Source: Bacteroidales bacterium
Lineage (GTDB): Bacteria; Bacteroidota; Bacteroidia; Bacteroidales; UBA932
Assembly: GCA_017445755.1 (NCBI GenBank)
Contig: JAFSSE010000010.1
Coordinates: 1 to 64,000 of the forward strand
DNA length: 64,000 nucleotides
Direction: 5' to 3'
Part shown: in pieces, positions 28,255 through 63,544 of the stretch
How the letters are laid out: the number at the start of each line of letters is the position of its first letter
Position numbering within the stretch: position 1 is the stretch's first letter
The notes under the pieces: model-generated
What the model was told of the DNA's origin: nothing
Seen by the model: only the letters and a program-made list of their open reading frames with translations
Database searches by the model: none
Position numbers and translations under genes: made by a program

Positions 28255-28643
28255 CAAGAAAACAACTGCTTTTTGCGAGAATCCTCTTCCTCCTTTATCT
28301 CATAGCCGTAGCATGGCTCTGCTTCGGCCGTTTTGACAACACCCCGGACGTTCCGCTGTCGTTTTTCGGAATTCCGACCGACAAGCTTGTCCATTTTGCA
28401 ATGTTCCTGCCCTTTCCGGTACTAACCTTTTTTGCCTTCAACCGGTACTCCGAAAAGTTCCTCAAAAGCTTCCTGTGGCTCTGGCTGACCTTTTTCATCG
28501 GAGCCCTGATAGCCGCCGGGACCGAAATCGGCCAGGGTCTTACGGAATACCGCAGCGCTGACACTCTCGACTTTCTCGCCGACCTCACAGGTCTCGGCAC
28601 AGGTACTATAGCCGTCCTCCTTCTGATGATTCGAAAGAAATGA
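28251..28643 (+). CDS. VanZ family membrane protein
   Basis: 130 aa, four hydrophobic segments. The VanZ pattern is visible: short N-terminal helix, SFFGIPTDKLVHFAMF after the first loop, and GTEIGQGLTEYRSADTLDFLADLTG before the last helix. VanZ proteins are linked to glycopeptide tolerance and envelope lipid carriers, but the biochemical role of stand-alone members is unsettled. Its ATG overlaps the ABC gene stop and its stop overlaps the next ATG. Confidence 0.88.
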   Translation: MTRKQLLFARILFLLYLIAVAWLCFGRFDNTPDVPLSFFGIPTDKLVHFAMFLPFPVLTFFAFNRYSEKFLKSFLWLWLTFFIGALIAAGTEIGQGLTEYRSADTLDFLADLTGLGTGTIAVLLLMIRKK

Positions 28644-48084: not shown

Positions 48085-49944
48085 TTATCCGCATCCGCCC
48101 TTGAGATACCACTTCCGAAGGTCTTCCGGGAATTTCTCGATGGCGTAACGGAGCATGGTGCGGGGCATCTGTCTGAAGCGGGGGGATTCTTCGCTGCGCT
48201 CAGAATGACAGGAGGGCTCAGAATGACAGGGAGGCGCAGGTTGGCAAAGCCAGGCCTCCAGCGCAGCTTGGTCCCGTTTTCCGGCCTCGCGGAGGAGCCA
48301 GCCCACGGCCTTGTGGATTAGGTCGTGAGGATGGTCCAGAAGGATGTCGGCTATGGCAAAGGTGTCGGAGAGCTGCCCGTGACGGATGAAGGTCATGGTG
48401 CTCACAATGCCGATCCTCTGTTCCCAGATGGTACGGCCGTCCCTTGCAAGACGGTATAGAATGCTCCGGTCCTTCTCCTGGAGAAGCCATTCTCCAAGGA
48501 GGGGGTAGCAGCTGAGGTCCACGAGATCCCAGTTGTTAATGTACTGGGTATGAAAGAGGTAGAAGCTGATGCACTGGGCTTTAAGATTTCTCGGCTCGCT
48601 TTGCTCGCTCGAAATGGCAGGAAATTTCCCGGCATGCGAGAATAATTCCACCAGCGAAAGCAGCGCCGCCAGGCGAACTTCGTGGTACTCGCTCTTAATG
48701 CAGCGCTCAAGTTCCGTGAACGGGCTCTCCGATGCCGCGAGCTCTTTCCAGTGCGCTTTCACTATGGCGCGCGTCACGGGAACCTTGATTCCCAGGAACT
48801 TGTCGCCTTCGCCGTACTGCCCCGGGCCGGTCTTGAAAAACCGGCTGAGACCAGGGACCTGCGAAGGGTCCGCCGCTGCAAGCATGGCTTCGCAGAGTGT
48901 CATCGGGCTTCGGGCGCCAAGCATTCGCCGGACCGTGCGCCGGATGTTCTCCTTCGCGACCTCCTTTTTCATGGCCTCTTCCAAGGCGAGCCAGGGAGGG
49001 TTGATACATTCAACGCGCGAAAATCCGGCCTGGAGGAGCTCCGGACGGTCATTAACCCTCCCGGCAATGAGGCAGACAGGAACGCGGCCTGAATGCTGCA
49101 GGATACACATCGGAAGTTTTCCCATCAATGTCTGACGGTCGGCGGCGCCCTCACCGGTTATAACGAGGGCGGCATCTGCGACAAGGGCATCGAAGCCGGA
49201 AGTGCGAAGAAGCAATTCGGCTCCCGGAACAAATTCGGCATCAAGGTATTGCATAAAAGCATAGCCCAGCCCGCCAGCTGCACCGGCACCCCTCATCCCG
49301 GAGCGGTCATAGCCAAAACGCTCGGCGGATTCGGCCGCAAACTGCCTGGCTTTTTCGTCAAGAAGACGCACCATCTGCGGCGTCGCACCCTTTTGAGGGC
49401 CGAACACCATGGCCGCACCGTTCTCACCGCAGAGAGGATTGTCGACATCGGCGGCTATTGTGAAGCGGACATCGCGAAGTGACTCCGGGCCGATATCCGT
49501 CAGCGCCTGCAGCATTCCCCTGCCGGCATCGATGGTGGCACTGCCGCCAAGGCCGACGATAACATGCCTGGCGCCATTTTTCACGGCATCCTCCACCAGC
49601 TGCCCGACGCCATAACTGGAGGCCGCCACAGGGTTCCGTTCCTCCGGACTAAGCAGCGTAAGGCCGATGGCCTGAGCCACTTCCAGCACGGCAGTATGCC
49701 CATTCAAGAGGTAGCGTGCCGAAATGCCCCGCATTAGAGGATCCATCACCGGGACAGTCAGAAACCGTCCTCCCATGGCAGCGTGGAAGGCCTCCAGAAA
49801 ACCTTCGCCGCCGTCGCTGACGGGCAGTTGCACAACTTCAGCATCCGGGCAAACGCTCAGAGCTCCATCCACGGCCGCCTGATTTGCTTCTATCGAACTC
49901 AGGCAGCCCTTGAATGAGTCAATTGCTATGATTATGCTTTTCAT
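48085..49944 (-). CDS. Glycerate kinase fused to AlkD-like DNA alkylation repair domain
   Basis: 619 aa in one open frame. Residues 1-~345: glycerate kinase of the GlxK/GarK type (MKSIIIAIDSFKGCLSS, SDGGEGFLEA, GLGGSATIDAGRGM, TGEGAADRQT), making 2-phosphoglycerate from glycerate. Residues ~352-619: HEAT-like AlkD DNA glycosylase domain (GLSRFFKTGPGQYGEGDKF, LGIKVPV), with WLLREAGK near the end. Only a short linker (GARSPMT) joins them. Two dispersed-repeat insertions lie inside the AlkD part (residues ~442-453 and ~571-588). The start overlaps the end of gph by 26 bases. Whether a single polypeptide or a lost stop between two former genes is open. Confidence 0.85.
   Translation of the reverse strand: MKSIIIAIDSFKGCLSSIEANQAAVDGALSVCPDAEVVQLPVSDGGEGFLEAFHAAMGGRFLTVPVMDPLMRGISARYLLNGHTAVLEVAQAIGLTLLSPEERNPVAASSYGVGQLVEDAVKNGARHVIVGLGGSATIDAGRGMLQALTDIGPESLRDVRFTIAADVDNPLCGENGAAMVFGPQKGATPQMVRLLDEKARQFAAESAERFGYDRSGMRGAGAAGGLGYAFMQYLDAEFVPGAELLLRTSGFDALVADAALVITGEGAADRQTLMGKLPMCILQHSGRVPVCLIAGRVNDRPELLQAGFSRVECINPPWLALEEAMKKEVAKENIRRTVRRMLGARSPMTLCEAMLAAADPSQVPGLSRFFKTGPGQYGEGDKFLGIKVPVTRAIVKAHWKELAASESPFTELERCIKSEYHEVRLAALLSLVELFSHAGKFPAISSEQSEPRNLKAQCISFYLFHTQYINNWDLVDLSCYPLLGEWLLQEKDRSILYRLARDGRTIWEQRIGIVSTMTFIRHGQLSDTFAIADILLDHPHDLIHKAVGWLLREAGKRDQAALEAWLCQPAPPCHSEPSCHSERSEESPRFRQMPRTMLRYAIEKFPEDLRKWYLKGGCG
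48180..48230. repeat. Dispersed repeat with 15-bp direct repeat inside the AlkD domain
   Basis: Plus strand holds GCTCAGAATGACAGG at 48198-48212 and again at 48216-48230 (period 18), next to GATTCTTCGCTGCGC. The 'GTCATTCTGAGC...GAAGAATC' unit is, from general knowledge, a widely dispersed repeat in bacterial genomes. Here it is in frame and encodes CHSEPSCHSERSEESP. Confidence 0.75.
48584..48618. repeat. Second dispersed repeat (palindromic) inside the AlkD domain
   Basis: Sequence with outer arms ATTTC/GAAAT around GGCTCGCTTTGCTCGC, encoding EISSEQSEPRN in the minus frame. It is the other commonly dispersed type (TTTCGAGCG...GAGAAATC). In frame, between two AlkD helices. Confidence 0.6.
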
Positions 49945-51363: not shown

Positions 51364-51419
51364 CAAACGATTACAAGCTTGTAATTATTTTATTCTGTGG
51401 GTTTGAAGGCGTAGCTTTG
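51364..51419 (+). promoter_or_regulatory. Palindrome copy A with promoter
   Basis: Diverged 28-bp palindrome at 51364-51391 (perfect inner 16 bp ATTACAAGCTTGTAAT, core CAAGCTTG). Its right arm TTTT (51388-51391) is 20 bases from the -7 TAGCTTTG (51412-51419). Member of the five-copy operator family; the outer arms are less symmetric here. Confidence 0.6.
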
Positions 51420-51426
51420 CAGGAGC

Positions 51427-51625
51427 ATGGCAGAGTACCCTCATATCCTCTTCAATCCCGTGGAGCGAACGCTCTACAGTCTCCCGCATCAAGGGCAAGC
51501 TGAAAGCTGCCCTTGGCGCCCGCGAAGCCAGGAAATATTATATACAGAGAAACAAGGCCGGCCTATACAGGATACGCCATCCTTATCCGATATCAACCAC
51601 TGTCGGCCACGAAATCATTGGATAA
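51427..51625 (+). pseudogene. Small gene, probably frameshifted
   Basis: A promoter (TAGCTTTG) ends eight bases before ATG 51427, which opens MAEYPHILFNPVERTLYS. The following reading in that frame looks non-coding, while the +2 frame from about 51470 reads TVSRIKGKLKAALGAREA then RKYYIQRNKAGLYRIRHPYP and ends at the TAA 51623-51625. Joined, they give about 65 residues of plausible basic protein. The switch lies near a GAGCGAACGCTC hairpin (about 51463-51474). No family recognised; it could be a decayed gene, a sequencing error or a programmed shift. Confidence 0.4.
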
Positions 51626-51632
51626 AAGCTAA

Positions 51633-52331
51633 TTAATCCAATTTCATTACCGCTATCACCATCATCCCCGCCAATACAGCGATAAAAATACTCAGCAGCG
51701 TCCCTGCCAGCACGTATTCCGTCTTGGCAGTATCCTTTTCGCTGAAGCGGATAATGGATTTCGCAGCAATCAAAAGGCCCAGCGCGTCATAACGCCCAAG
51801 GCAAACAAAGATCAGAATCAACCAGCGTTCAATCGTGCCGATTAGCGCCCCGGCATTGAAGCCGCCCTCCTGCTCCTCGGGCATACTCACACTGTAGTGC
51901 CTCAGCATCAGCTTTATAAAGAAATTGGCCGGCTTCCAGCATACCATCGCTGCGACAGCAATCGTCACATACTTCAGGTGCAAGAATTCCGGCATAGACC
52001 AGTCAAAAGAACGACACCACAGCCAAGCCACTATGGAGAGCGTCGCAACATGAACGCACTGATCCAGCGCAAACCACGTCACCTTTTCCGGTCGATACGA
52101 TTTCCAGATATCGGTGCACAAATGCGCCGCTCCGATAATCAACGCACCCCAGCAGAAGCGAAAGTCCCAAGACAGCAGCCAAGCCAACGTGAAGACAATC
52201 AGCGCATGGATGTACTGATGCACGCTCCGCTCATGCTTTTCCGCCTTACTCTTGCAAGAGGCCGATGTCTGAAAGACAAAGTCGGCAACCAGATGCGCCA
52301 ACAAAAGACATATAAACAATTCTACCCACAT
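51633..52331 (-). CDS. DUF3307 membrane protein
   Basis: 232 aa with six or so hydrophobic segments. The N-terminus (LFICLLLAHLVADFVFQT) and HALIVFTLAWLLSW followed by GAAHLCTDIWKSY are the DUF3307 pattern. Function unknown. Its start overlaps the end of the satD-like gene by ten bases; this pairing is, as I recall, frequent in Bacteroidetes, implying a shared role. Confidence 0.85.
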   Translation of the reverse strand: MWVELFICLLLAHLVADFVFQTSASCKSKAEKHERSVHQYIHALIVFTLAWLLSWDFRFCWGALIIGAAHLCTDIWKSYRPEKVTWFALDQCVHVATLSIVAWLWCRSFDWSMPEFLHLKYVTIAVAAMVCWKPANFFIKLMLRHYSVSMPEEQEGGFNAGALIGTIERWLILIFVCLGRYDALGLLIAAKSIIRFSEKDTAKTEYVLAGTLLSIFIAVLAGMMVIAVMKLD

Positions 52332-52987
52332 ATCCTTTCAAAATTCATTTCTTCAAAGTCCCGAATAGCCGTCCGAAGCAGCCCCCACTGCGCCTGACCA
52401 GACCTCGTATTCACCGACGACTGATATATTCCCAGACGCTCGCCAATCTCTTTCTCCTTATAGCCGAACAGTTTATAAAACACCACCTCCGCCTGTTTGG
52501 CCGAATAGGAATCGACCAGGTTACCGATGAGCGCCACATATGAGTCCATTATCTCATTTATCGACTTGGACGCATTAGCCATCTCGAACGCCGTAAAGAT
52601 ACTACTGCTCCGACTGATTTCATCAAGGTTCCGGCCTGAAATATAGATCGCCTCGCCGTTAATGATATCATCCTTCCTATCGGCATAATCAAGATCCCCC
52701 ATGCCGATAGAAAAACGGATGCCATGCCGACGTAAAAGTTCGTGACAGTCAAGTCTTTCCGCCTGCATCTTAACAAAGAGTTTGATGAGAATGGCTAAAC
52801 GCAGCGAATCATGGTACGTCGGAACGACACACTCGACGCTGTCGCCCCGGACAATCCTGGCCCAAAAGCCCGGTGAATCCTTTTCAAACTCTTCCAACAA
52901 CCCCCACAGTCTATCTCGCAGGAGCATCAAGTCCTCCGTCCTCAAGGAAGTGGAACGAACGATATCGGCCGATATTGTAGCAATCAT
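52322..52987 (-). CDS. SatD family protein with C-terminal helix-turn-helix
   Basis: 221 aa from ATG 52985-52987. N-terminal SatD-like domain resembling nucleotidyl-cyclase-type folds: IATISADIVRSTSL, RIVRGDSVECVVP and FSIGMGDLDYA followed by GEAIYISGRNLDE. C-terminal sigma-region-4-like HTH: VFYKLFGYKEKEIGERLGIY followed by QSSVNTR. SatD was linked to acid tolerance in streptococci; its mechanism is unknown. Two promoters precede it (53007-53038 and 53159-53214), the distal one carrying palindrome copy B. It may bind its own AT-rich upstream region; that is inference. Confidence 0.8.
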   Translation of the reverse strand: MIATISADIVRSTSLRTEDLMLLRDRLWGLLEEFEKDSPGFWARIVRGDSVECVVPTYHDSLRLAILIKLFVKMQAERLDCHELLRRHGIRFSIGMGDLDYADRKDDIINGEAIYISGRNLDEISRSSSIFTAFEMANASKSINEIMDSYVALIGNLVDSYSAKQAEVVFYKLFGYKEKEIGERLGIYQSSVNTRSGQAQWGLLRTAIRDFEEMNFERICG

Positions 52988-53006
52988 GGCTTCTATATTT
53001 GTTCGG

Positions 53007-53061
53007 CAAATATATCTAATATTTATCAGATAAACAAGAAATATCGATGATTTATTAGATA
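53007..53061 (-). promoter_or_regulatory. Proximal satD promoter with TATC/GATA inverted repeats
   Basis: Minus-strand -33 CTTG (plus 53035-53038), 20-base spacer, -7 TATATTTG (53007-53014). Around it: TATCTAATA (53013-53021), TATCAGATA (53024-53032) and TATTAGATA (53053-53061), the first and last being exact inverse complements. Candidate operator for this AT-rich start region. Confidence 0.5.
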
Positions 53062-53158
53062 CATGCAAAATTCGGATGATTCTTATTTCGAGAATTATTG
53101 ACTCACATCTAAAGCCGCCCCGCCGCCCGATTGCGCTGATTATGAGATACCATTGAAA

Positions 53159-53214
53159 CAAATTTAGGCACATTAATCTGCAAAATCAAGCGATTTCAAG
53201 CTTGAATTCGTTTG
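53159..53214 (-). promoter_or_regulatory. Palindrome copy B with distal satD promoter
   Basis: 28-bp imperfect palindrome at 53187-53214 (core CAAGCTTG; one T:T mismatch and one wobble). Its left arm gives minus-strand CTTG at -33, 20 bases from a perfect -7 TAAATTTG (plus 53159-53166). The transcript would run into satD with a ~165-nt leader. Confidence 0.65.
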
Positions 53215-53291
53215 CATTTGTCGAAAGTTTTTCCAATAGACATAATTTCCTAATTTCCAAATCATTGCAAACCTTGCAACGATTTGGAATC
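53177..53291. repeat. ~105-bp repeated promoter module, left copy
   Basis: Aligns at roughly 80% identity by eye with 61926-62033 in the same orientation: palindrome, then a TTTTTCCAATA-ACATAATT stretch and ATTTCCAAATC-TTGCAAACC. Together with the right copy it brackets RNA ligase, JetABCD and two orphan genes. Confidence 0.75.
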
Positions 53292-53314
53292 GGCAAAAAG
53301 CACCCCTAACTTTG
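53255..53314 (+). promoter_or_regulatory. RNA ligase promoter with a second type of inverted repeat
   Basis: -33 TTTG (53283-53286), 20-base spacer, -7 TAACTTTG (53307-53314). A 16-bp-arm inverted repeat (53255-53270 and 53274-53289, one mismatch, 3-base loop) covers the -33 box. Its sequence differs from the CAAGCTTG family, but the placement is the same: one arm holds the -33. Confidence 0.65.
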
Positions 53315-53330
53315 CCGAAAACAAAACGCT

Positions 53331-54344
53331 ATGCTGACATTCAAAAAATACAGTTCCATCGAGAACTCCTTTGACGGCGCCTACATGGAAAAGGCGCGTA
53401 ATCACACCCCCTTTGACGCACGCTTCGTAGTACAGGAAAAGGTCCACGGTTCCAATTGCAGTTTCCTCTGCGACGGGGCGGAGATCCAATTCGCCAAACG
53501 CACCGCGGTGGTGGCCGAGGGCGAAGAATTCTACCAGTGGCAGGATCTTGCGGACCGCTATCGCGAGCGCATATTTAAGCTGTACCGTATGCTCAAGGGA
53601 CGTTTCCCCACTCTCATCTCCGCCATCGTATACGGCGAGCTGTTCGGTGGCGCCTACCCGCACAAAGACGTCAAACGAATCGGTGCCATGTCGGCCATCC
53701 AGAAGGGCGTCTACTCCTGCCCAGGGCATGATTTCTACGGCTTCGACATCTACGTCTACCTGCCAGAAAACGCCTTTTACCTGGACGTGGACACAGCCAA
53801 CCGCATCTTCGCCGAAGCCGGCTTCCTGTATGCTGAGACGCTCTTTGAAGGCAGTCTGGACGAGTGCCTCGCCCAGCCGAATGCCTTTCCAAGCACCATC
53901 TACAAGCATTTCGGCCTACCGGAGATCGAGGACAACATCTGCGAAGGCATCGTCATCCGTCCCAAGGAACCGCTCTACATTCCCAACGGTGCCCGCATTA
54001 TCATCAAGAGTAAAAACGCTCGCTTCGCGGAGAAAAAGGCCGTTAAACACGCACCAAAGGTTCCCCGTGCCATTGCTGACGAGGTGACCGAACTTCTCAC
54101 TCTGGCTGAAGCGTATTTCACAGAGACACGACTTGACAACGTCAAGAGCCATATCGGCGAAGTCTCCTTCCCCAAAGACCTCGGGCGCGTCAGCGGCCTT
54201 CTCGCCAAAGACGTCCTGGAGGACTTCCTCAAAGAACATGCTGAGCCCTATAACAACCTGGCCAAACAGGAGCAGAAGACCCTCAATGGCCTTCTGAGCA
54301 AACGTGTCATTGACTTTATTAAAAGCATCATCGGGATGCCGTAA
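53331..54344 (+). CDS. Rnl2-type RNA ligase
   Basis: 337 aa. Covalent nucleotidyltransferase motifs in order: I EKVHGSN (nucleophile Lys37), KRTAVV, IVYGELFGG (motif III), EGIVIRPKE (motif IV) and IIKSKNARFAE (motif V); the C-terminal ~110 residues are helical, as in T4 Rnl2-family enzymes. It seals nicks in RNA duplexes or repairs cleaved tRNAs. It is a single-gene unit with its own promoter, convergent with the Wadjet operon (10-bp gap). All active-site residues I can check are present. Substrate unknown. Confidence 0.88.
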   Translation: MLTFKKYSSIENSFDGAYMEKARNHTPFDARFVVQEKVHGSNCSFLCDGAEIQFAKRTAVVAEGEEFYQWQDLADRYRERIFKLYRMLKGRFPTLISAIVYGELFGGAYPHKDVKRIGAMSAIQKGVYSCPGHDFYGFDIYVYLPENAFYLDVDTANRIFAEAGFLYAETLFEGSLDECLAQPNAFPSTIYKHFGLPEIEDNICEGIVIRPKEPLYIPNGARIIIKSKNARFAEKKAVKHAPKVPRAIADEVTELLTLAEAYFTETRLDNVKSHIGEVSFPKDLGRVSGLLAKDVLEDFLKEHAEPYNNLAKQEQKTLNGLLSKRVIDFIKSIIGMP

Positions 54345-54354
54345 GCATCATAAA

Positions 54355-55233
54355 TTAAATATTTCCCTTGATAAACCCCTCCTGGTCATAGCCCTTCTGG
54401 TAGCGGTGGATCAACTGTACCAGAGAAAGGACGCGCGGGTCGGTCACTTCCATCTTGCCAAAGCGCGGAAACTGAGTGTCGTAGCGGTCACGGCTGCCAG
54501 AAGATTGAAGGCGTTCCTGGATGTCGTCGGGGACAAAGAAAGATGCCCGTTCCCCCAGGCGGGCGAAGAATTCGGTGAGATAGATATGGATGCCCGCCAG
54601 GTCAATGTCTCCAAAATGAACATACGGGTTGGAGATGCCTTGCAGCCACAGCCCCAGATCCTTTGACTGGGGGTAACGGGAAACCAGTAGAAACGGCGGG
54701 ACTCCACCGTCGCCATATCGTTCCTGAATCTGTTCCCAGATGGGCAATTGGAGCTCCGGCTGGCGGAAGTTTTCCATATTCTCCACGCCCACCACGATAG
54801 CATCCCTTGGGATGCGGAAGTGCCGGAAGTCGCTGATATAAGAGAAGGTACCAGGGCATGGGCATAGCAATATCTTACGATCCCCAAGCTTGACGTTTAA
54901 GGGTGAAATCACATTTACCGGAAAGCCGGGACAAGAGCGGACAGCCACGGCTTTTGAATCTCCAAGCGCCTGCACCAGGGCAGAGCGGCTTGTCGGTTCA
55001 GACAAAACCTCCATCGTCTCATGTAACAGATCTGGATTCAGTCCCTTACTGCGAAGGAACACATCAAAAGAGCGAAGCGAACGCACTTTCAAGGATTTCC
55101 GGCTGCCATGGACAATGCTGGACAGACATCCTTCAGAGAGCAGCTCGTCTGCCCAGTCTTCAGGGAAACGGCTGGAGGGTATGGTCTCGCCCCTACGCAA
55201 AGCGGTAAAGGCCTGAATCAGACTTGCTTTCAT
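54355..55233 (-). CDS. jetD: Wadjet nuclease subunit JetD
   Basis: 292 aa. DUF2220/Toprim-type domain: VVGVENMENF (acidic residue) and HFGDIDLAGIHI (DxD), forming the metal site that cuts DNA in Wadjet. Helical N-terminal domain about 1-150. The start overlaps the jetC stop by four bases. Last gene of the jetABCD operon, in the canonical order. In studied systems JetD cleaves small circular plasmids after loop extrusion by the JetABC motor. Confidence 0.88.
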   Translation of the reverse strand: MKASLIQAFTALRRGETIPSSRFPEDWADELLSEGCLSSIVHGSRKSLKVRSLRSFDVFLRSKGLNPDLLHETMEVLSEPTSRSALVQALGDSKAVAVRSCPGFPVNVISPLNVKLGDRKILLCPCPGTFSYISDFRHFRIPRDAIVVGVENMENFRQPELQLPIWEQIQERYGDGGVPPFLLVSRYPQSKDLGLWLQGISNPYVHFGDIDLAGIHIYLTEFFARLGERASFFVPDDIQERLQSSGSRDRYDTQFPRFGKMEVTDPRVLSLVQLIHRYQKGYDQEGFIKGNI

Positions 55234-58200
55234 ACCTGAGCCGCCTCCTTTCGGCTCAAGAGTGATTGAATCACAGTATGATTGCCATCCTTGGTAAGTA
55301 AATAGGTGTGCTTGTAATCGGCCACATTATATGGTACTGGCGATCCGTTTACCAGAAAGATATTTCGCGCACCGGCGAAATCCAGGATGCCCTTGACGTT
55401 GCGGGGATGGAGCTTGCCGATCTCATCCATAACGCAATGGATGCGGAAATCGGCAAAGCGCCCTGACACCCGCTCTTTAAACACATTGATTAGCATAATG
55501 TTAACCATCGCTTTCACCAGCACATCCGTGCCGTCTGAGCCCACGCTGGATATCTTTTCCACCCAGCCGGTGTCGTTGTCGTTCTCCGTGATGCGGAACT
55601 CAAGCTGGAAGGTGTCGCTGAGAGTGAGTCGGTTACGGCCGGCGTGCTCCCCGACCAGCAGATTCATCAGAGAGAGCAGATGCCTCACCGCTTCGGTGTT
55701 CACCTGGTCACGCGCGTTTCCGGAAAAAAGGTTCACGCCTTCCAGTTCAAAGCTGTGTTCATCGACGAATTCCTTGATTTGGGATAGTAGAATGACCATT
55801 CTATCGGCCGATGCAACAGTGCGGAGTTCAATGCTCTTAACTGCACCGATGAAATTCTTCTCCCGGAAGTCGAAGTTGATATCCTTGATGATTCCGGCAA
55901 TCTCCGAGGAATTGCGGGAGACCTCGTCCATCTCATGGGAAAGGCGAAGCAGCAGGTCCGTGTAATGCCCGCTGGTACGACGGCGGTACTCCTCTATCTT
56001 GTCACTTTCCATGAACTCCACCAGTGAGGCGGCAAAGTTCCGGTAATCCTCGTCGGTGCGATTGTCCGTTCGAAAGCCGAAGATATTGCCTGGGCTGAAA
56101 TGACCGGTAAAACTGTTGACACTTTGGGAGAATGTCTGTTCCGTGCTGCGTTTTTCGCTAAGGACGCCATGGATAAGGTCGATGAGCTGGCGGCAAGTTT
56201 TGCCGGTCTTTTGCTCCCGGCCGTCCGGCAGCAGAGGCAGGGTATTGTTCTCCCTAAAGTTGTCTGCTTCCTGAAGACCATCTTCGAGGGTTTTCAACTG
56301 ATCCTTTGTCGCTATCAGCGATTCATTCAAATGCTCCAAAGCATCCTCTTCCTTCTTTTGCCGGAGCTTGTAACGCTCTGATAGTGAAGTCTTTTTCTCT
56401 TCGATAGTCTTCTTTTGAGAAAGATATATGTCCCGCTTGTCAAAATACTCTTCTTTATCCTTGCGATAGTTGAACAATGTTTCCTTATTGGCTCCGATAC
56501 GCTCCAGGCGGGCAGTCAGATCCTGTATTTCTTTCTCACATTGAGCGAGGGCCTTAGTATCCGCTCCCTGCCCCGCGAGCTCGCGGGAACGTTCCCGGGA
56601 AAGCTCTTCCAACGACTTAAGCAGTGCCGCTTCCTTCTCCTCCATTTCCTTTGCAACGGCTGCAATGGCAGCGTCGTGCTGCTCTTTCAGGGATTTTCGC
56701 CGCCGCGCATCGGCCTGATCTGCACGCTGTATTTCGGTCGATTTCTCTGCAGCCAGCTTTTTCAACTGCTCCGAGGCGAGCACCCTCTGAGCATGCAACT
56801 CCTCCAATTGCCCTTTATAATGGGCCCTTGCCGCTGCTCGTTCTTCCTGCGTTTTCTGTTCATAAGAGGAAACCTGCTTTTTCACGCCTTCGATTTTCGC
56901 GGGCAGCATCAGAGCAGCCGTCTGTAACAGGGCAAGCTGATCTTTGAGGTCTTTTATGTGAGCATTGTGCTTTTTCTTGAGGGCCGACAGCTCCGACTCC
57001 TTCTGAGCTATCAGTCCTTCCTGTTCGCTCTGATGCTTCAAGCATTCCTTTTCCAACCGCTGCTTCTCCTCCCGGAGCTGCACCGGCGTACGAACGCGCG
57101 TTTTCAGTCCACTGAGGTCGATGTCCACCCCATACAACGAGTCCCCCTTCCCCTCCTTTGGCCATAAGTTCTTGGCATACAGGACTGTACGTTCATCGGT
57201 CACCTTGCCGATGTTTTCAGCCCAATCGGGCTTGTTCTGGTTGAGCCATTGTATCAAGGAGCCGTCCATGGAAGAGAGCAGCTCTTCAATACCTGCAATC
57301 TGCGAGGAGAGCTCCTCGATACGGCTCCGGACAGTTTCCAGCTTGTCGTCATATTCCCTTGCCAGGTTTCCCTGCTGCATCTGCGCCTCTTTTGTCGCTG
57401 TTTCAATACGGACCTGCATTTCTTTCTCAGACGCCTTCAGCGCCCGGTCTTCGCCACTAAGCCGGCTCAATTCACTCCTGGCCGCCTCAATTTCAGCGGC
57501 GTAGGGCGAAAGCAATGCAGACAGAGCCATCTGTTTGTCCGCCTCCCCGACGCGCCGGGAAAGATCCTCAATCAGCCCCCGTACCGACTCTTCCCTTTCC
57601 CGGAAGGCATTTTCGATGGCGTCAAGCTCAATCCTCAGGATCTCCGCCGCCTTTTGCATCTTCTCGTTATAAGCTCTTCCAATCTCTACTTTCCTACCCT
57701 CTATGGCGGCCTTCCAGGAATCAAAACCCAGCCGCTGTTCCCGCTCCAAGGTGGCATATTTTGACGATATATCGGCGTACTCCCGCGTGAGCCGCTCCTT
57801 TAAAGCCCGGGCTGATTCCAACTGGACCTTCAGCGCCGGCTCACGGCCATCCTCCTCGATAAGTTCTTGAATCTTAAGCTGCTGATATTTCTTTTTAAGA
57901 TCCGGAATCCTGTCCAGCTTATCCTTGAGCACCCCATACTCCTGTTCCAGCGAGGACAACTCGCGGCTGTATTTATCCTGAAGTTCAGAAAGTTTTTCCC
58001 TGTGTTTATTCAAGTCGATTTCTTTTTCCTCGGCCTGTTTTTCCAACAGCGGAATATGCTCTTCGGCGTAGTGGCGGGCAAACCTGAGCTCCAGCAGCGA
58101 ACTAACCAGTTCATCGTCCAGATATAGCAGCCGTCTGTAATGCTCAATCACCTTTTCCGCCTGCCTGCGCACAGTTACCTCCCCCTGCTTATTCTTCTGG

Positions 58201-58886
58201 AACCAGGCCTGGATGTCATTGTACTCCCTTTCAAATCCTGCAAGCTGGCTGCGAAAATACACCAGATCAATGCCGGGTTCCTCATCTCCCAGCGAACGGA
58301 TGATGATGTCCTTGATGAAATCGGCATCCACCTTTGCACCCAGGAACACGTTCTGTAATGACCTCGGAATATTCTGATACTTAGCCGTTTCCATGATACT
58401 GTAGCGAGCGAATTCCTTCCCCGCCACCCGTCGGTTGCCATAGATGATATCACGGTATTCCTGGTACTCGTCTACAATTCTGGTCATTTGAGCCGAGCCC
58501 AACCTTCTCCTTATTACAGATGGATCGGCCGTAACCTCCCCGTTTTCATCAATCAGCCACTCCTTCCGGAAAGATGCGTTGATGAAACGGAATACGGAGT
58601 GGGCATTGCGCCGGAATACAAGCACCGTAAAGGCCCCGAACTCACTTTCCACCTCATAAATCAAGTACGAGTTAGCCCCCGGAAGGTAAAAATCGTCAAA
58701 GGTCCTCTTCTCCCGGCTGATGCCAAGTTTATTCTTCTCGGCCGTATAGAAAAACAGGATGGCCCTTAATACCGTACTCTTTCCAACGCCCTGAGTACCA
58801 ATCAGATGCACATTACCGTCCAGCTGCACCTCCCCGTAACGGATGTTGGCGCTGTTGATAAACACAATCTTACTCAACTGTCTCAT
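55230..58886 (-). CDS. jetC: Wadjet SMC-like ATPase JetC
   Basis: 1218 aa. N-terminal ATPase lobe with Walker A GTQGVGKST (30-38); the middle (about 240-900) is long coiled coil rich in Glu/Lys/Gln heptads broken by a hinge-like region near 540-610; the C-terminal lobe has VMDEIGKLHPRNVKGIL and NIFLVNGSPVPYN, the Walker B/D-loop region of MukB/JetC-type proteins. Motor that extrudes DNA loops. Overlaps jetB by 17 bases and jetD by four. Frame intact throughout. Confidence 0.93.
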   Translation of the reverse strand: MRQLSKIVFINSANIRYGEVQLDGNVHLIGTQGVGKSTVLRAILFFYTAEKNKLGISREKRTFDDFYLPGANSYLIYEVESEFGAFTVLVFRRNAHSVFRFINASFRKEWLIDENGEVTADPSVIRRRLGSAQMTRIVDEYQEYRDIIYGNRRVAGKEFARYSIMETAKYQNIPRSLQNVFLGAKVDADFIKDIIIRSLGDEEPGIDLVYFRSQLAGFEREYNDIQAWFQKNKQGEVTVRRQAEKVIEHYRRLLYLDDELVSSLLELRFARHYAEEHIPLLEKQAEEKEIDLNKHREKLSELQDKYSRELSSLEQEYGVLKDKLDRIPDLKKKYQQLKIQELIEEDGREPALKVQLESARALKERLTREYADISSKYATLEREQRLGFDSWKAAIEGRKVEIGRAYNEKMQKAAEILRIELDAIENAFREREESVRGLIEDLSRRVGEADKQMALSALLSPYAAEIEAARSELSRLSGEDRALKASEKEMQVRIETATKEAQMQQGNLAREYDDKLETVRSRIEELSSQIAGIEELLSSMDGSLIQWLNQNKPDWAENIGKVTDERTVLYAKNLWPKEGKGDSLYGVDIDLSGLKTRVRTPVQLREEKQRLEKECLKHQSEQEGLIAQKESELSALKKKHNAHIKDLKDQLALLQTAALMLPAKIEGVKKQVSSYEQKTQEERAAARAHYKGQLEELHAQRVLASEQLKKLAAEKSTEIQRADQADARRRKSLKEQHDAAIAAVAKEMEEKEAALLKSLEELSRERSRELAGQGADTKALAQCEKEIQDLTARLERIGANKETLFNYRKDKEEYFDKRDIYLSQKKTIEEKKTSLSERYKLRQKKEEDALEHLNESLIATKDQLKTLEDGLQEADNFRENNTLPLLPDGREQKTGKTCRQLIDLIHGVLSEKRSTEQTFSQSVNSFTGHFSPGNIFGFRTDNRTDEDYRNFAASLVEFMESDKIEEYRRRTSGHYTDLLLRLSHEMDEVSRNSSEIAGIIKDINFDFREKNFIGAVKSIELRTVASADRMVILLSQIKEFVDEHSFELEGVNLFSGNARDQVNTEAVRHLLSLMNLLVGEHAGRNRLTLSDTFQLEFRITENDNDTGWVEKISSVGSDGTDVLVKAMVNIMLINVFKERVSGRFADFRIHCVMDEIGKLHPRNVKGILDFAGARNIFLVNGSPVPYNVADYKHTYLLTKDGNHTVIQSLLSRKEAAQV

Positions 58887-59421
58887 TTGCCTCCTCCTCG
58901 CTGATCGTCAGCATTTCTACCAGGTCCTCCAGGAAATGGAAGGCCGATGTTACCTTATACAATTGTTCAAACTCATTCTCAAGCTCGATGAACCCTGCTT
59001 TAACCAGATCCTCTACAAGGGCCTGGACGGCATCTTTGACACTGCGCTGCCCTTCGTAGAGTTTCCGGGCCTTTTCCTTCAGTTCCACATCGGACGATGC
59101 CGCCTCCGTGATGGTGGATGGAGAAAAACGCACTCCAGTAGAGAACCCGCTGTGAAAAGTTTTTATAAAATCCAGCCGGTCTATCCATACGCCAAGCCCA
59201 GTGAGACGCCTGGAAAGTTCCGTCCTGGAATCGTCCCGCGTAAAATAGAAGTAGCCGTTCCCCTGCTCCAGGAAGAAGCCAATCCCTTCATAGTAAGTCT
59301 TATACTCATCGAAATGCTCCTCGATGAGGTCATATAGCCGGCGGATTTCCTGCTTCACGCTGTCCTGGCAGATGAATCCGCCCCGGGACAGGATGTCGAA
59401 TAATTCTTTGGACTTAATCAT
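58870..59421 (-). CDS. jetB: Wadjet subunit JetB (MukE-like, DUF4194)
   Basis: 183 aa. Winged-helix kite protein pattern: ELFDILSRGGFICQDS at the N-terminus, GNGYFYFTRDDSRTEL in the middle and VEDLVKAGFIELEN with HFLEDLVEMLTI near the end. Links JetA to the SMC head. Ends within jetC (17-base overlap) and starts three bases after jetA. Small for the family but complete. Confidence 0.82.
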   Translation of the reverse strand: MIKSKELFDILSRGGFICQDSVKQEIRRLYDLIEEHFDEYKTYYEGIGFFLEQGNGYFYFTRDDSRTELSRRLTGLGVWIDRLDFIKTFHSGFSTGVRFSPSTITEAASSDVELKEKARKLYEGQRSVKDAVQALVEDLVKAGFIELENEFEQLYKVTSAFHFLEDLVEMLTISEEEANETVE

Positions 59422-59424
59422 GGT

Positions 59425-60624
59425 CTAACACGAATAAATCAGTGGATAAGAATAGTTCCCGGTCTGGGCAGTTTCTTCGCTGATGCGAAAGTCGTCACAG
59501 TACTCCGCCGCCAGGCGGCAGAAAAGCGTAAGACGGTCTTCTTCGCTCATGGGTTCATCGAAGCGATACTGGCCTATAAAGGACATCAGGTCCTGCGATC
59601 CTCCAAGAAAAACGTTTCGCAGCTCAAAGGTATTCAAGATATCCTTGACAATGGCATTCGGCTGAAGTTCCTCTGCCGTGAGCGGAACAGCTTCTGTCTT
59701 TCGCCTGGCCACGGGATGCCTTAGGGCCTTGTGTGCATCCTTCAAAGCGGCAATACCGTCCGGCGTGTCAGTAAGACCCTCCAACGACGGGAGCAAGTTA
59801 AACCAGGAACGTTTCTCAAGGAAGGCCGGCCGATGGGTTTGGAGAAAGAGAATCACATCCGTTGCCTGTTCCCAAACCAGCTGGTCCTTGAGGTACTTGA
59901 TTCGCCGAATCTTTTCCACCAGTTTCTGCTCGGCCTCAATCCTGTTCAAATACTGGATAATCTGCCGGTCAAGCTCCAAGAGGTTGTGGTAAGACTCTGT
60001 GAGCGAATTCTTTACCTCCGTCACCATATCTTTCAGTTGCGAATCCATCGAAACGCCAAAGAATGTGGGATGCCGCTCGTCTATTACCTTTTCCGCCTCT
60101 TTGATAAGGAGGGCGATATCAGCCCGCTTGCGGTCCAGAATTTCCAGCCGTTTGCGCTTTAGGGCATAGTCCCGCTCATTCTTGTAGGTGCTGTCAATGT
60201 TGCGCTTTAGGTCAATGACATTGCGGTGGGTAGAAAGGGAAATGTTCCGAAGGATGCGAAGAATCTCTCCCATATAGCGAAAGCGCTTCGGCTCCGTCCC
60301 CGCCGTGAGCCATAGCTCGATATTCTCGTTGAGGGTATCGATGTGCTGCTTCACCGACTGGACGTTGATTTCTTCATTCACCTCCAGAACCTCTTCGAAG
60401 AAACGCAGATATGTCTCCTCCAGCACAAGCACTCCGTCCTGCAGCCGGACCACCCCGTGGTCCAGAAGCAGATTCAATCTACGTTCATCACCCGAGAAGA
60501 AGTTCTCCACCGCCTGCTCCTGTCGCAGCGAAGGTGTTTTCCTGCCGATGAACAGGAATTTCAGGAGATCCTTTCCCCAAGCCATCACCCGCAGCAGCGA
60601 GTCTATATTCCGGAACGCATTCAT
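59425..60624 (-). CDS. jetA: Wadjet subunit JetA (MukF/kleisin-like)
   Basis: 399 aa. Position (first of four), size and an all-helical profile with winged-helix-like ends fit JetA, the kleisin that bridges the SMC dimer. N-terminus FRNIDSLLRVMAWGKDLLKF; middle coiled coil about 150-250 (KRKRLEILDRKRADIALL). I could not assign the Wadjet subtype with certainty. ATG 60622-60624 lies 22 bases after a -7 element with palindrome copy C at the -33 position. Confidence 0.82.
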   Translation of the reverse strand: MNAFRNIDSLLRVMAWGKDLLKFLFIGRKTPSLRQEQAVENFFSGDERRLNLLLDHGVVRLQDGVLVLEETYLRFFEEVLEVNEEINVQSVKQHIDTLNENIELWLTAGTEPKRFRYMGEILRILRNISLSTHRNVIDLKRNIDSTYKNERDYALKRKRLEILDRKRADIALLIKEAEKVIDERHPTFFGVSMDSQLKDMVTEVKNSLTESYHNLLELDRQIIQYLNRIEAEQKLVEKIRRIKYLKDQLVWEQATDVILFLQTHRPAFLEKRSWFNLLPSLEGLTDTPDGIAALKDAHKALRHPVARRKTEAVPLTAEELQPNAIVKDILNTFELRNVFLGGSQDLMSFIGQYRFDEPMSEEDRLTLFCRLAAEYCDDFRISEETAQTGNYSYPLIYSC

Positions 60625-60646
60625 ATCATCCCCTCAAGTATTCACA

Positions 60647-60702
60647 CAAATTTCAACCAAAAACTTATCGTTTTCAAACGAATTCAAGCTTGAATTCGTT
60701 TG
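60647..60702 (-). promoter_or_regulatory. Palindrome copy C with the Wadjet promoter
   Basis: Perfect 28-bp palindrome at 60675-60702: outer CAAAC/GTTTG around GAATTCAAGCTTGAATTC. The left arm supplies minus-strand TTTG at -33, 20 bases from GAAATTTG (plus 60647-60654), one base off TAnnTTTG. jetA starts ~22 bases on. Confidence 0.7.
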
Positions 60703-60729
60703 CCTATGCCGATTCTTTTTTTACAAGCC

Positions 60730-60761
60730 CTTGCTCCCCTGCCAAGAATTCCCTATCTTCG
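60730..60761 (+). promoter_or_regulatory. Putative promoter of the 60767 gene
   Basis: CTTG (60730-60733), 20-base spacer, TATCTTCG (60754-60761; one mismatch to TAnnTTTG), five bases before the ATG. Near-leaderless if used. Confidence 0.45.
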
Positions 60762-60766
60762 CCCGT

Positions 60767-61378
60767 ATGAAAGAACTGATGGGCATACAGGCCAGAGTAG
60801 CATGGGAGATTCTCTTCGGGAAAACAGGCGTCCTTGAAGAGCCAGAGGTGAAGTATGGCGACTCTGAGCGGCTGGACCTCCTGAGTGCCCGCGAGCTCTT
60901 TGACCTCCTGCAAAAGGTACAGGAAAAACTGCAGGAAAAAGGATATGATGTGAGCATTGACAAGGCCGATGGGCCCATCTCCCCCGAGCCCCAGACTCTC
61001 CATATCAGCAAAGACTACCGCATCCTCATCGACTGCCTCGGCCTGAAGGAAATCACCCTGAGGCCCCTTCTGAGGGCTGTTTTTATCCTGTTCCTCCGAC
61101 ATCCGGAAGGCATCCGCATCAAGGAAAAACAAGCTTATCGGGAGGAACTGCTGGATATCTACGCCCACATCTTCCCTAACCTGGACCCGGACATCTGCCG
61201 GGAGCGGATTGACCGTCTCATCGCCCCCGGGCAAAACGCCTTCAGCGAAAACCTCTCGCACCTGAACAGGGCCCTGACCTCCATCCTTGGGCCCGACGCT
61301 TCCCCCTACCAGGTTTACGGCTCCAACGGCCGTCCCCGCCGCATTCTGCTGGATCCGGTGTATGTTGTTTGGGAATAG
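60767..61378 (+). CDS. Orphan protein of unknown function
   Basis: 203 aa from ATG 60767, chosen because the open frame upstream runs through promoter and palindrome sequence. Soluble and mainly helical by appearance, with ARVAWEILFGKTGVLEE, a Leu/Gln helix at about 45-60 and a C-terminal GSNGRPRRILLDPVYVVWE. No cysteine-rich, nuclease or membrane motif recognised. It lies between the Wadjet promoter and a convergent orphan gene inside the repeat-bracketed segment, so a defence-related role is possible but unsupported by homology. Confidence 0.6.
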   Translation: MKELMGIQARVAWEILFGKTGVLEEPEVKYGDSERLDLLSARELFDLLQKVQEKLQEKGYDVSIDKADGPISPEPQTLHISKDYRILIDCLGLKEITLRPLLRAVFILFLRHPEGIRIKEKQAYREELLDIYAHIFPNLDPDICRERIDRLIAPGQNAFSENLSHLNRALTSILGPDASPYQVYGSNGRPRRILLDPVYVVWE

Positions 61379-61395
61379 GTTTTCCCCAGCATAGT

Positions 61396-61881
61396 CTATA
61401 CCCCCGCTTCGACCAGATAATCATCCCCTGCTCGAATCAAATGGAGCAAAAAATCTTCCGTGAAGGCAAGGAGTAAGTCATAATTTCCCCAACCATTCTC
61501 CGGATTCAGCGGAAGCAATTCTTCCCGATGTGAGCGGAGATAAATATATCCTTTGAGCACAAATTCTCGGTATCTTGGCGCCCCTGCCGAATTAAATCCT
61601 TGTTCTTTCGGATACCACAACAAATCGAATAATGACAAATTCGTGCCCTCTACAGGCACCTCTCGGGCCATCTTCCCCATGTTATGAGTAATGTTTCCAT
61701 GCCAGAAGTCTTCATCTTCATAATCAAACTCATGGATATGGGACAAATCCTTATCCGGAAAATGTGCCCGCACTTCCTCCATCGTTTTCAGTTCCAGCGT
61801 TTGTCCATTCTCGCGAACATAGACACCCGTTCCATGTTTAATGACGGGCTCCGGCGTAATAATGTGTAAATCAAGTGACAT
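61396..61881 (-). CDS. Orphan protein of unknown function
   Basis: 161 aa from ATG 61879-61881. Acidic, without signal or membrane segments; features include LDLHIITPEPVIKHGTG, HEFDYEDEDFWHGNITHNMG and ENGWGNYDLLLAFTEDFL. Not recognised; size and acidity recall small immunity proteins but nothing specific supports that. The promoter 26 bases upstream has GAAATTTG and palindrome copy D at -33, the same arrangement as jetA. Longer in-frame starts would lie inside the palindrome. Confidence 0.6.
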   Translation of the reverse strand: MSLDLHIITPEPVIKHGTGVYVRENGQTLELKTMEEVRAHFPDKDLSHIHEFDYEDEDFWHGNITHNMGKMAREVPVEGTNLSLFDLLWYPKEQGFNSAGAPRYREFVLKGYIYLRSHREELLPLNPENGWGNYDLLLAFTEDFLLHLIRAGDDYLVEAGV

Positions 61882-61906
61882 ATTACCTTTAGTTTTAGTC
61901 TCTTTA

Positions 61907-61963
61907 CAAATTTCGCCTGAAAGAACTATCAAATCAAACGATTTCAAGCTTGAATTCGTTTGC
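61907..61963 (-). promoter_or_regulatory. Palindrome copy D with promoter
   Basis: 28-bp palindrome at 61936-61963 with a single T:T mismatch (core CAAGCTTG). Left arm gives TTTG on the minus strand at -33, 21 bases from GAAATTTG (plus 61907-61914), the same octamer as in front of jetA. Confidence 0.65.
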
Positions 61964-62033
61964 AAAATCCGATTGTTTTTCCAATACACATAATTCCCTT
62001 ATTTCCAAATCCTTGCAAACCCGCATTTTGAAA
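61926..62033. repeat. ~105-bp repeated promoter module, right copy
   Basis: Right-hand counterpart of 53177-53291, same orientation, ~8.7 kb away. Similarity runs from the palindrome through TTTTTCCAATACACATAATT to TTGCAAACCC and then fades; the second inverted repeat and plus-strand promoter of the left copy are degraded here. Confidence 0.75.
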
Positions 62034-62072
62034 TCAACAAATAAATGCTAATACAAAAAGTATTAAGAAATG

Positions 62073-62128
62073 CAAGCGAATTCAAGCTTGAATTCGCTTG
62101 ATTCTATGGGCGACTTGTGTGATATTTG
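62073..62128 (+). promoter_or_regulatory. Palindrome copy E with promoter
   Basis: Perfect 28-bp palindrome at 62073-62100: outer CAAGC/GCTTG around the same inner 18 bp as copy C, so the fourth base pair is changed on both sides together. The right arm gives CTTG at -33, 20 bases from GATATTTG (62121-62128). Confidence 0.65.
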
Positions 62129-62132
62129 TTCT

Positions 62133-62654
62133 ATGATTGAATTTGACTTTACAAATCCAGTTTGTGTGCTCTCTGGAAATGAGTTTCTTCCCAAGAAGGG
62201 AATCACTTTCGCCCAGCAGGTTTTGGAGTTCTTTATCGCCCAAGGAGGTGTAGCCCGCTCTCCTTGGGGAGAAGTCTTGCTGGATATGAAAGGTATCCAG
62301 AGCGACAAATCCCATGGTATCGGCCGCATCAAGGCGGCTTCTTTCGCAGCTGTGAAGGATGTACTGGAAAAAGGAACTGCTATCCTGCCACTGGACTACT
62401 ATGCTACTGGCGGGAAGAAGCAGATGACAGGAATGATGGCTGCACCTATTCTCATCGGGACAGATTCCTTTATATGTGTGGTGGTGGTGATTTATAATCT
62501 TCTGGAGCGGAGGCTATACCTACATGAAACCTTCTTAACAGAAAAAATCCCGGAGATTGCTGCATCTAGCTTGGTTCGTAGCAGCAATGCTGCGTCACCG
62601 CAATCCCTGGGAAACATTGCAAAGATACTGATGAGTTTTCTGAAAAGCAAATAA
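62133..62654 (+). CDS. LPD3-like (large polyvalent protein-associated) domain protein
   Basis: 173 aa from ATG 62133, the first ATG after the promoter -7 element; ATGs at 62070 and 62106 are in frame but lie in or before promoter sequence. After FTNPVCVLSGNEF comes AASFAAVKDVLEKGTAI, MMAAPILIGTDSFICVVVV and RRLYLHETFL, resembling the LPD3 domain of large polyvalent phage and conjugative-element proteins (pattern: AFA-VP-VI, AAPI-IGG, YLHEV). There it accompanies toxin or nuclease domains; here it is nearly alone, so this could be a remnant. Its residue-rich core lacks obvious catalytic motifs. An AT-rich gene follows after nine bases. Confidence 0.55.
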   Translation: MIEFDFTNPVCVLSGNEFLPKKGITFAQQVLEFFIAQGGVARSPWGEVLLDMKGIQSDKSHGIGRIKAASFAAVKDVLEKGTAILPLDYYATGGKKQMTGMMAAPILIGTDSFICVVVVIYNLLERRLYLHETFLTEKIPEIAASSLVRSSNAASPQSLGNIAKILMSFLKSK

Positions 62655-63456: not shown

Positions 63457-63530
63457 GACCGCGTACCTTAGTGGTTAAAGGGCAACACTTGCAAATGTCG
63501 ACATCGTGGGTTCGAATCCCACCGCGGCCA
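63457..63530 (+). tRNA. tRNA-like gene with apparent 8-nt anticodon loop
   Basis: Cloverleaf: acceptor GACCGCG/CGCGGCC (one A:C mismatch at pair 2-71), D-arm CCTT-AGTGGTTA-AAGG, anticodon stem CAACA/TGTCG (one A:C mismatch), loop CTTGCAAA of eight bases, T-arm GTGGG-TTCGAAT-CCCAC, discriminator A; no encoded CCA. The anticodon could read TGC (Ala) or GCA (Cys) depending on register, but the Ala G3:U70 pair and the Cys U73 discriminator are both absent. 74 nt, one more than a standard tRNA body. Could be a special or a decaying tRNA. Confidence 0.6.
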
Positions 63531-63544
63531 CATAATAAATAACC

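Follow-up and report, generated by a model that had tools for sequence, protein, structure and literature searches.

The window analyzed here comprises 64,000 nucleotides (positions 1 to 64,000, forward strand) of contig JAFSSE010000010.1 from a Bacteroidales bacterium of the UBA932 lineage (assembly GCA_017445755.1), and carries five 28-base-pair (bp) palindromes (dyads), each located at a promoter. Four of them belong to the GAATTC type (type A), and one is a TTACAAGCTTGTAA variant (GATTAC type, type C). A gene of 203 amino acids (aa), termed F1 and called an orphan in an earlier note on this DNA, surfaced when genes were compared between dyad loci, and is proposed to encode the dyad-binding regulator. 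The dyads, F1 and the remnant of the related gene F4 are arranged as follows:

51364..51391, plus strand: dyad copy 1, type C, oriented rightward, toward the F4 remnant; -7 octamer TAGCTTTG at 51412-51419
51427..51636, plus strand: F4 remnant, a small F1-related putative winged-helix gene; judged from the translation, start and end resemble intact relatives and the middle is lost
53187..53214, minus strand: dyad copy 2, type A, facing left; -7 octamer TAAATTTG at 53159-53166 (minus strand)
60675..60702, minus strand: dyad copy 3, type A, perfect, covering the -33 box of the jet promoter; -7 octamer GAAATTTG at 60647-60654 (minus strand)
60767..61378, plus strand: F1, 203 aa, proposed dyad-binding regulator; -7-like octamer TATCTTCG at 60754-60761 (by eye)
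61935..61962, minus strand: dyad copy 4, type A; -7 octamer GAAATTTG at 61907-61914 (minus strand)
62073..62100, plus strand: dyad copy 5, type A, perfect, before the gene at 62130-62654; -7 octamer GATATTTG at 62121-62128

All five palindromes described in the earlier note were recovered, with 3, 2, 0, 1 and 0 mismatched pairs out of 14 in copies 1 to 5, respectively; a perfect 28-bp palindrome is expected 0.008 times by chance in 2.18 Mb at equal base frequencies. Copies 2 to 5 match the 20-mer CGAWTTCAAGCTTGAAWTCG with at most three mismatches (0.02 matches expected in the window), and copy 1 escapes this search because it is the C-type variant. The 16-bp core AWTWCAAGCTTGWAWT occurs in the window in exactly these five dyads, so that the absence of further copies, as claimed before, held in the core and 20-mer searches, which returned none but the same five. 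The shorter CAAGCTTG by itself has additional occurrences at 28382 and 54885 and, with one mismatch allowed, is found at chance level (26 observed versus 23.9 expected). Four of the palindrome positions given earlier were correct, whereas copy 4 lies at 61935-61962 and not at 61936-61963. The same shift of one base accounts for the formerly reported octamer spacings of 20, 20, 20, 21 and 20 bases: the outer arm is 20 bp from the -7-like octamer in all five window dyads. On its far side, copy 3 ends 64 bp upstream of F1. A second dyad type (type B, 53258-53286), occupying the same promoter position, had been missed.

The contig ends at 72,351, and within the genome assembly, which is 83% complete, the core AWTWCAAGCTTGWAWT was found in seven copies, all on the window contig between 51,370 and 66,204. 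Two of them lie past the window end (65063-65090 and 66183-66210), the genes behind them including a ParE-like toxin (just below the Pfam cut-off) and an HTH_3/Gp49 pair, and the octamer stands at 20 bp in 7/7 copies. A search for cores one base off additionally revealed a degraded C-type dyad with one arm kept on another contig (C43:18951-18978), where TATCTTTG follows at a distance of exactly 20 bp and the gene downstream looks, on visual inspection, like the BRO-like genes behind C-type dyads of five other genomes; further one-base-off matches (C17:5625, C20, C29) featured neither arms nor octamer. A pattern scan of the whole collection of 84,980 species genomes yielded 63 stretches (compared stretches and loci are numbered with the letter L), seven of which (L025, L044, L054, L063, L074, L082 and L084) had common arms and flanks and represent five Bacteroidales metagenome-assembled genomes (MAGs), in which the 28-mer, with no more than three mismatches, occurs 12 times. 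Among 400 genomes of the window's genus, six contain the 28-mer, the other five being those MAGs, as judged from identical places, and a reversed control pattern gave no match. Many other scan stretches seem to be coding matches to one conserved peptide, which we take to be purC. In viral contigs, two pattern stretches were found, both lacking arms, and no relatives of F1 or F4 were confirmed.

Housekeeping promoters of Bacteroidetes carry TTTG at -33, approximately 20 bp from TAnnTTTG at -7. The dyad promoters fit this layout, with many A/C boxes deviating (GAnnTTTG; CTTG and CTTT arms). For the register count, 44 stretches were evaluated, and an octamer was accepted when it matched at least five of six fixed positions on at least one side of the dyad. 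Extending the palindrome search to the genome and its relatives, as had been suggested, 41 out of 46 A/C dyads (window contig and relatives) showed the -7-like octamer exactly 20 bp out, the five without it being located in L102, L105, L106:7597, L107:10017 and L214. Type B behaved likewise (27 out of 30), and the octamer was also found at 20 bp in dyads too diverged for the count (L195, L201, L212, L217, L218 and the C43 copy). When flanks were collapsed at 60% identity, the octamer remained at spacer 20 in 19/40 A/C and 15/26 B cases, with a mean of 0.47 (A/C) and 0.09 (B) at other spacers and the next A/C peak amounting to five at spacer 10. Upstream of the dyad lies a conserved block, about AAAACAATCGACAT.

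Such repetition could also originate from a promoter block copied by recombination in a shuffling island, with F1 as a linked passenger and no common regulator. In line with this scenario, a 116-nt promoter block is present twice in the window (80% identity), flanks past the dyad are alike, and F1 and dyads share loci. However, dyad and register survive in the 19/40 independent flanks, that is, where flanks have diverged, the dyad halves change together from GAATTC to GATTAC, the dyad type tracks the F1 type in several target families, and one in-register site (C43) resides on another contig, so that we regard copying alone as an improbable explanation.

Relatives of F1 are encoded in L100, L104 and L106 at 81-86% identity and in L104 (second copy), L107 and L108 at about 37-47% identity. 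With the F1 profile, members were detected at E <= 1e-8 in 145 of the 400 genomes of the genus, 22 of which reached E <= 1e-55 (hereafter close F1). Beyond the genus, 8 of 198 genomes sampled from the order gave weaker, C-terminal matches. Counted without regard to phylogeny, as are all F1-dyad counts and p values given here, the core palindrome is present in 18 of the 22 close-F1 genomes versus 18 of the 378 others (p = 8e-18), and in 12/16 versus 18/378 after removal of the six seed genomes (p = 5e-12). In one more close-F1 genome, the 19th (G153), the core is a variant flanked on either side by an octamer at 20 bp. F1a, the subclade with window-like F1, occurs in 4/400 genomes, all within the six 28-mer genomes (p = 1.4e-8), with GAATTCAAGCTTGAATTC upstream in three of the four.

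Furthermore, the dyad sequence changes with the F1 subclade. Among the 30 best F1 loci, GAATTC-type palindromes are located upstream of F1 in L126, L128 and L129, and ATTGCAAGGCTTGCAAT upstream of three distant F1 genes, while GATTACAAGCTTGTAATC-type (GATTAC) cores precede F1 in 12 of the 16 loci L131-L146. Target families seem to carry the operator type of their own genome's F1, as judged from a handful of cases: a HigBA-like pair has an A dyad in the window genome and a C dyad in L212, each matching the genome's F1 type, and a RAYT-like gene stands beside an A dyad in L104, L106 and L108 and beside a C dyad in L201. In an alignment of four A-type and 17 C-type F1 sequences, four columns hold disjoint residues; one of these differences (position 165, H/S versus V/A/N, in a putative helix) had been considered as part of a recognition helix, an idea dropped for too few independent changes.

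These results suggest that the dyads are operators of an island regulon and that F1 is the protein that most likely binds them, as a dimer, a reading we hold to be reasonably probable on the strength of distribution and co-variation. It replaces the earlier statement that no obvious regulator lies beside the palindromes, since F1 adjoins one dyad and co-occurs and co-varies with the dyad sequence. The proposal of one dyad-binding regulator that blocks or replaces -33 contacts across the island is itself the best-supported one, given the 41/46 register and the dyads at promoters of defence-type, toxin-antitoxin and other genes in relatives.

Several observations weigh against this reading. Searches of Pfam, NCBIfam and PHROG revealed no recognised DNA-binding domain in F1, and its AlphaFold model is poor (predicted local distance difference test score, pLDDT, 52.8). 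The neglect of phylogeny in the counts also has to be considered, as has the fact that F1 and the dyads occupy one locus, for which reason their association could largely be co-inheritance; mere linkage is opposed by further dyads that these genomes carry on separate contigs, although such contigs may adjoin, and by the few target families whose operator type follows the F1 type of the genome. The L107 genome contains a degraded A dyad without F1a, in L100 the 450 bp preceding F1 contain no dyad, and the F1 of L130 falls outside F1a yet has an A-type dyad. Upstream inspection and core search gave no palindrome for the close-F1 genomes G404, G370 and G250. Conversely, 18 genomes have the core without close F1; of 14 looked at, five lack arms and nine possess an at least partly armed dyad (two with F4). 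The window genome, whose F1 complement consists of F1a and one distant relative, retains two C-type sites (51364 and C43), and the C-associated F1 was not found in it. Finally, octamer-like matches peak at spacer 10 as well (19/89 sides), which is due to the conserved block upstream of the dyad.

For F1 and F4, no Pfam match better than E 0.1 (WYL included), no PHROG match at E 0.01 and no NCBIfam match better than E 0.06 was obtained, and comparisons of F1 with PDB sequences and of F1 and F4 with PDB folds returned nothing significant. As a separate observation, F1 (window 60767-61378; L106:6921-7532) weakly matches the PADLOC CARF5 model (21-23 bits) over positions 208-336 of 351, i.e., the C-terminal part of the model, and four longer F1 relatives from other genera gave no CARF5 match when scanned. 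A CARF sensor domain like that of CARF5-type CRISPR ancillary proteins was not recognised in F1, and the match is a lead to a possible domain link with cyclic-oligoadenylate signalling proteins; CARF5 is treated in PMC12669630.

F4 is homologous to F1, as deduced from a profile comparison (97.3%, E 2.8e-11). A divergent F4-dyad-F1 arrangement, with gene starts inferred from homologous parts, was found in 15 of 50 stretches, these 15 coming from 13 genomes, two of which have two each; F1 is a fragment in L208 and the core a variant in L195. The F4 model (pLDDT 77.7, from three sequences) ends in helices and a short strand, and the DNA-binding domains of SaeR, RstA and YycF are among its 33 fold matches, none of them significant (best E 2.1). 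In the two genomes that contain F1a without a C-associated F1 (window and L106), F4 lies at a C-type dyad and looks damaged; in L100, where the dyad is of type A, it looks intact.

The dyads might serve as operators of a protein other than F1, the candidates being F4, the HigBA-like pair's HTH_3 antitoxin and the product of the gene labelled SatD. F4 shares homology with F1 and adjoins the dyad at many loci, but A dyads persist in the window and in L106 even where F4 looks damaged. A dyad precedes the operon that encodes the antitoxin (contig 65436-65753), but relatives of the antitoxin are present in just two other compared stretches (L212 and L107). As to SatD, which had been suggested as the regulator, a weak sigma-region-4 match is opposed by its distribution: it was found in one of the six genomes with the window-type (A) dyad and in 6 of 31 searched, and was rejected accordingly. 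Taken together, a role of one of these proteins as the regulator appears unlikely.

The genes behind the window dyads, together with dyad B, are the following:

51633..52331: DUF3307 gene, forming with the SatD-labelled gene the unit behind copy 2
52322..52987, minus strand: gene labelled SatD in the earlier note; weak sigma-region-4 match only
53258..53286, plus strand: dyad B, 72 bp from copy 2, facing the RNA ligase promoter; -7 octamer TAACTTTG at 53307-53314
53331..54344, plus strand: Rnl2-type RNA ligase (PF09414, PF18043) behind dyad B
54355..60624, minus strand: Wadjet-like (jet) operon behind copy 3, with parts at 59425-60624, 58870-59421 (MksE-like), 55230-58886 (DUF3584) and 54355-55233 (weak DUF7281)
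61396..61881, minus strand: F2, no assigned function, behind copy 4, common to four other palindrome-bearing genomes
62130..62654: gene behind copy 5, no Pfam match

The label of the jet operon was thus borne out (DUF3584, MksE), and the labels SatD and LPD3-like were not confirmed by Pfam. In relatives, where a family name was mostly assigned from a single scanned member of each cluster, the genes behind dyads comprise a YhcG-type nuclease (L189 and L215, the former matching PADLOC PDC-S02), a BRO-like gene (L206, L207, L209, L211 and L213, with L206 matching PDC-S13), a RAYT-like gene (L104, L201 and L106, the octamer of the last being weak), F4 with an AlkD-like gene after it (L100; in L106, a piece of 62 aa), a metallophosphoesterase (L189) and CutC (L218). 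Toxin-antitoxins are located behind dyads in the window contig, L103 and L212. The set contains defence-type and toxin-antitoxin genes but, other than postulated in the earlier note, is not purely defence: repair-like, transposase and metabolic genes belong to it, and the second dyad type is interleaved. An AlkD-like sequence was also noticed in the window at 48085-49944, where a 619-aa frame fuses a front that we read as glycerate-kinase-like to an AlkD-like back, the two being separate in relatives.

The genome has three copies of dyad B (CAAATCnTTGCAAnnnTTGCAAnGATTTG), which lie in the stretch of the core copies (53258-53286 and contig positions 65134-65162 and 66612-66640) and precede the RNA ligase, a region of short frames only and a tRNA-Met. 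Across stretches, its targets are the RNA ligase, a DUF7873 gene, tRNA-Met and a family without Pfam match. It was detected in 16 of the 22 close-F1 genomes and, at up to two mismatches, in 2 of 30 other genomes (a third at three mismatches), these 30 having been chosen for completeness and hence non-randomly. Eleven A-B or B-B pairs are exactly 72 bp apart, most of them facing outward as double promoters. The island tRNA-Met and RNA ligase under dyad B may possibly provide tRNA repair or replacement against anticodon nucleases. Genes for tRNA-Met with dyad B promoters were observed at L009:4501-4573 (contig 66501-66573), L103:2371-2446 and L188:7768-7843. Furthermore, tRNA-like genes untyped by ARAGORN, with a four-base anticodon reading (tgca), occur at window 63457-63531, L193:12167-12242 and L202:12711-12785; in L103 and L195 their place is taken by an ordinary tRNA-Cys(gca). 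Just beyond the dyads, an RloB-like gene and an AAA ATPase (L009:5431-7301, contig 67431-69301) match a PADLOC candidate (PDC-M12A/B).

RAYT-like genes are located beside or just upstream of F1 at L104:3379-4299, L106:7776-8744, L108:6914-7777 and L201:4937-5872. Palindromes near such genes raise the question of whether the dyads are REP-like (repetitive extragenic palindromic) elements spread by the transposase, which would be compatible with a regulatory use. The genes (tested member: NF047646, E 9e-12; 45 bits against a cut-off of 80) adjoin F1 across the dyad in L104, L106 and L201, their family counts eight members in the compared stretches plus that of L108, and the frequent pairing of B dyads exactly 72 bp apart resembles REP doublets. 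REPs usually exceed 100 per genome (PMC2817692), whereas in the genome studied one contig holds seven core copies and a degraded one lies elsewhere. Moreover, a fixed 20-bp register to the -7 box is not expected of random insertion, and a search for RAYT-like genes, confined to contig stretch 44001-72351, returned none. This origin is accordingly considered very unlikely. Since some of the alternatives discussed are not mutually exclusive, their probabilities overlap.

Returning to F1 as the regulator, the promoter sequences give an indication of the direction of control. The promoter-side arm reads TTTG in 15/43 A/C versus 30/32 B promoters (p = 2e-7), and the -7 box has its initial T in 17/43 versus 26/32, respectively. 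Within A/C dyads, 42 of 43 distal arms end in G versus 27 of 43 promoter-side arms (p = 6e-5), a trend also visible in collapsed flanks (about 13 promoter-side versus 18 distal arms out of 19). The weaker promoter arm favours an activator, because a repressor over the -33 box should preserve this arm best, while a stand-in for the -33 contact would be free of this constraint; activation is also in keeping with the conserved upstream block. Activation thus seems somewhat more probable than repression.

The dyads with their 20-bp register and clustering, the co-occurrence and adjacency of F1 and dyads, and the homology of F1 and F4 are read directly from sequence, whereas binding by F1, activation and the defence purpose are inferred. 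In the proposed mechanism, an F1 dimer would bind the 28-bp dyad, which spans roughly -33 to -60 and places its outer arm on the -33 box, with a distance of exactly 20 bp to the -7 box. In this way, F1 would control, and probably activate, defence-type, toxin-antitoxin, nuclease, transposase and repair-like genes, coordinated defence being the presumable purpose, and would probably regulate its own gene, often divergent from F4 across the dyad.

OmpR/PhoB sites are direct repeats, and PhoB-like operators are positioned at the -33/-35 box, a position that the dyads share. OmpR-family DNA-binding domains rank among the best matches of the predicted F4 fold, without significance, but the dyad is a single long palindrome, a search of the genome (F1 included) for Trans_reg_C (PF00486) gave no match at E 0.001, and Pfam scans of F1 and F4 gave no receiver domain. 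With REP/REPIN-RAYT systems, the dyads share the vicinity of RAYT-like genes in relatives and the paired B copies, and they differ in low copy number and fixed promoter register. In PMC9122601, BrxR is described as a WYL-family helix-turn-helix repressor encoded in a phage-defence island, acting on two inverted-repeat boxes with 11-bp arms and a 5-bp spacer in the island studied, its own promoter region included. Like BrxR, the candidate regulator F1 is island-encoded, with inverted repeats at several promoters including one near its own gene. Unlike BrxR, F1 belongs to no named family and has no WYL domain match, the dyad is a gapless 28-bp palindrome whose seven core copies keep a fixed position at the -33 box, and activation is no less likely than repression of the kind exerted by BrxR. 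In Bacteroidetes, LexA-like motifs (CTAA-N5-TTAG and GGA-N5-TCC) are assigned to S24-family peptidase regulators, both groups being absent from Bacteroidales according to PMC8565304. Palindromic operators whose sequence shifts alongside regulator paralogues are a common feature; however, the dyads match neither motif, and Pfam scans of F1 and F4 revealed no S24 peptidase match. In the literature searched, which included few subscription papers, neither the operator nor the F1 family is described.

The dyads represent an unusually clean shared operator, island-wide control being known in kind and found here in a new form. Little is known about how a defence island is controlled as a whole, the BrxR case concerning a single island with two boxes. 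In the island described here, seven promoters carry one operator type, whose sequence varies with the candidate regulator across the genus. The regulator-operator pairing is now open to gel-shift testing, and the dyad motif can be used to find further defence and repair genes. The arrangement is a candidate for a coordinated stress circuit in an order reported to be without known LexA-like regulators. More tentatively, F1 might found a new Bacteroidales transcription factor family, governing an expandable island regulon in which cassettes acquire the operator-promoter module, regulator and operator change together, and the role is SOS-like. An equally tentative assignment would place the Wadjet-like operon, toxin-antitoxins, YhcG-type nuclease, BRO-like gene and RAYT among its cassettes, with the RNA ligase and tRNAs under dyad B. 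If this were true, the F1 circuit would do for these bacteria what SOS does elsewhere.

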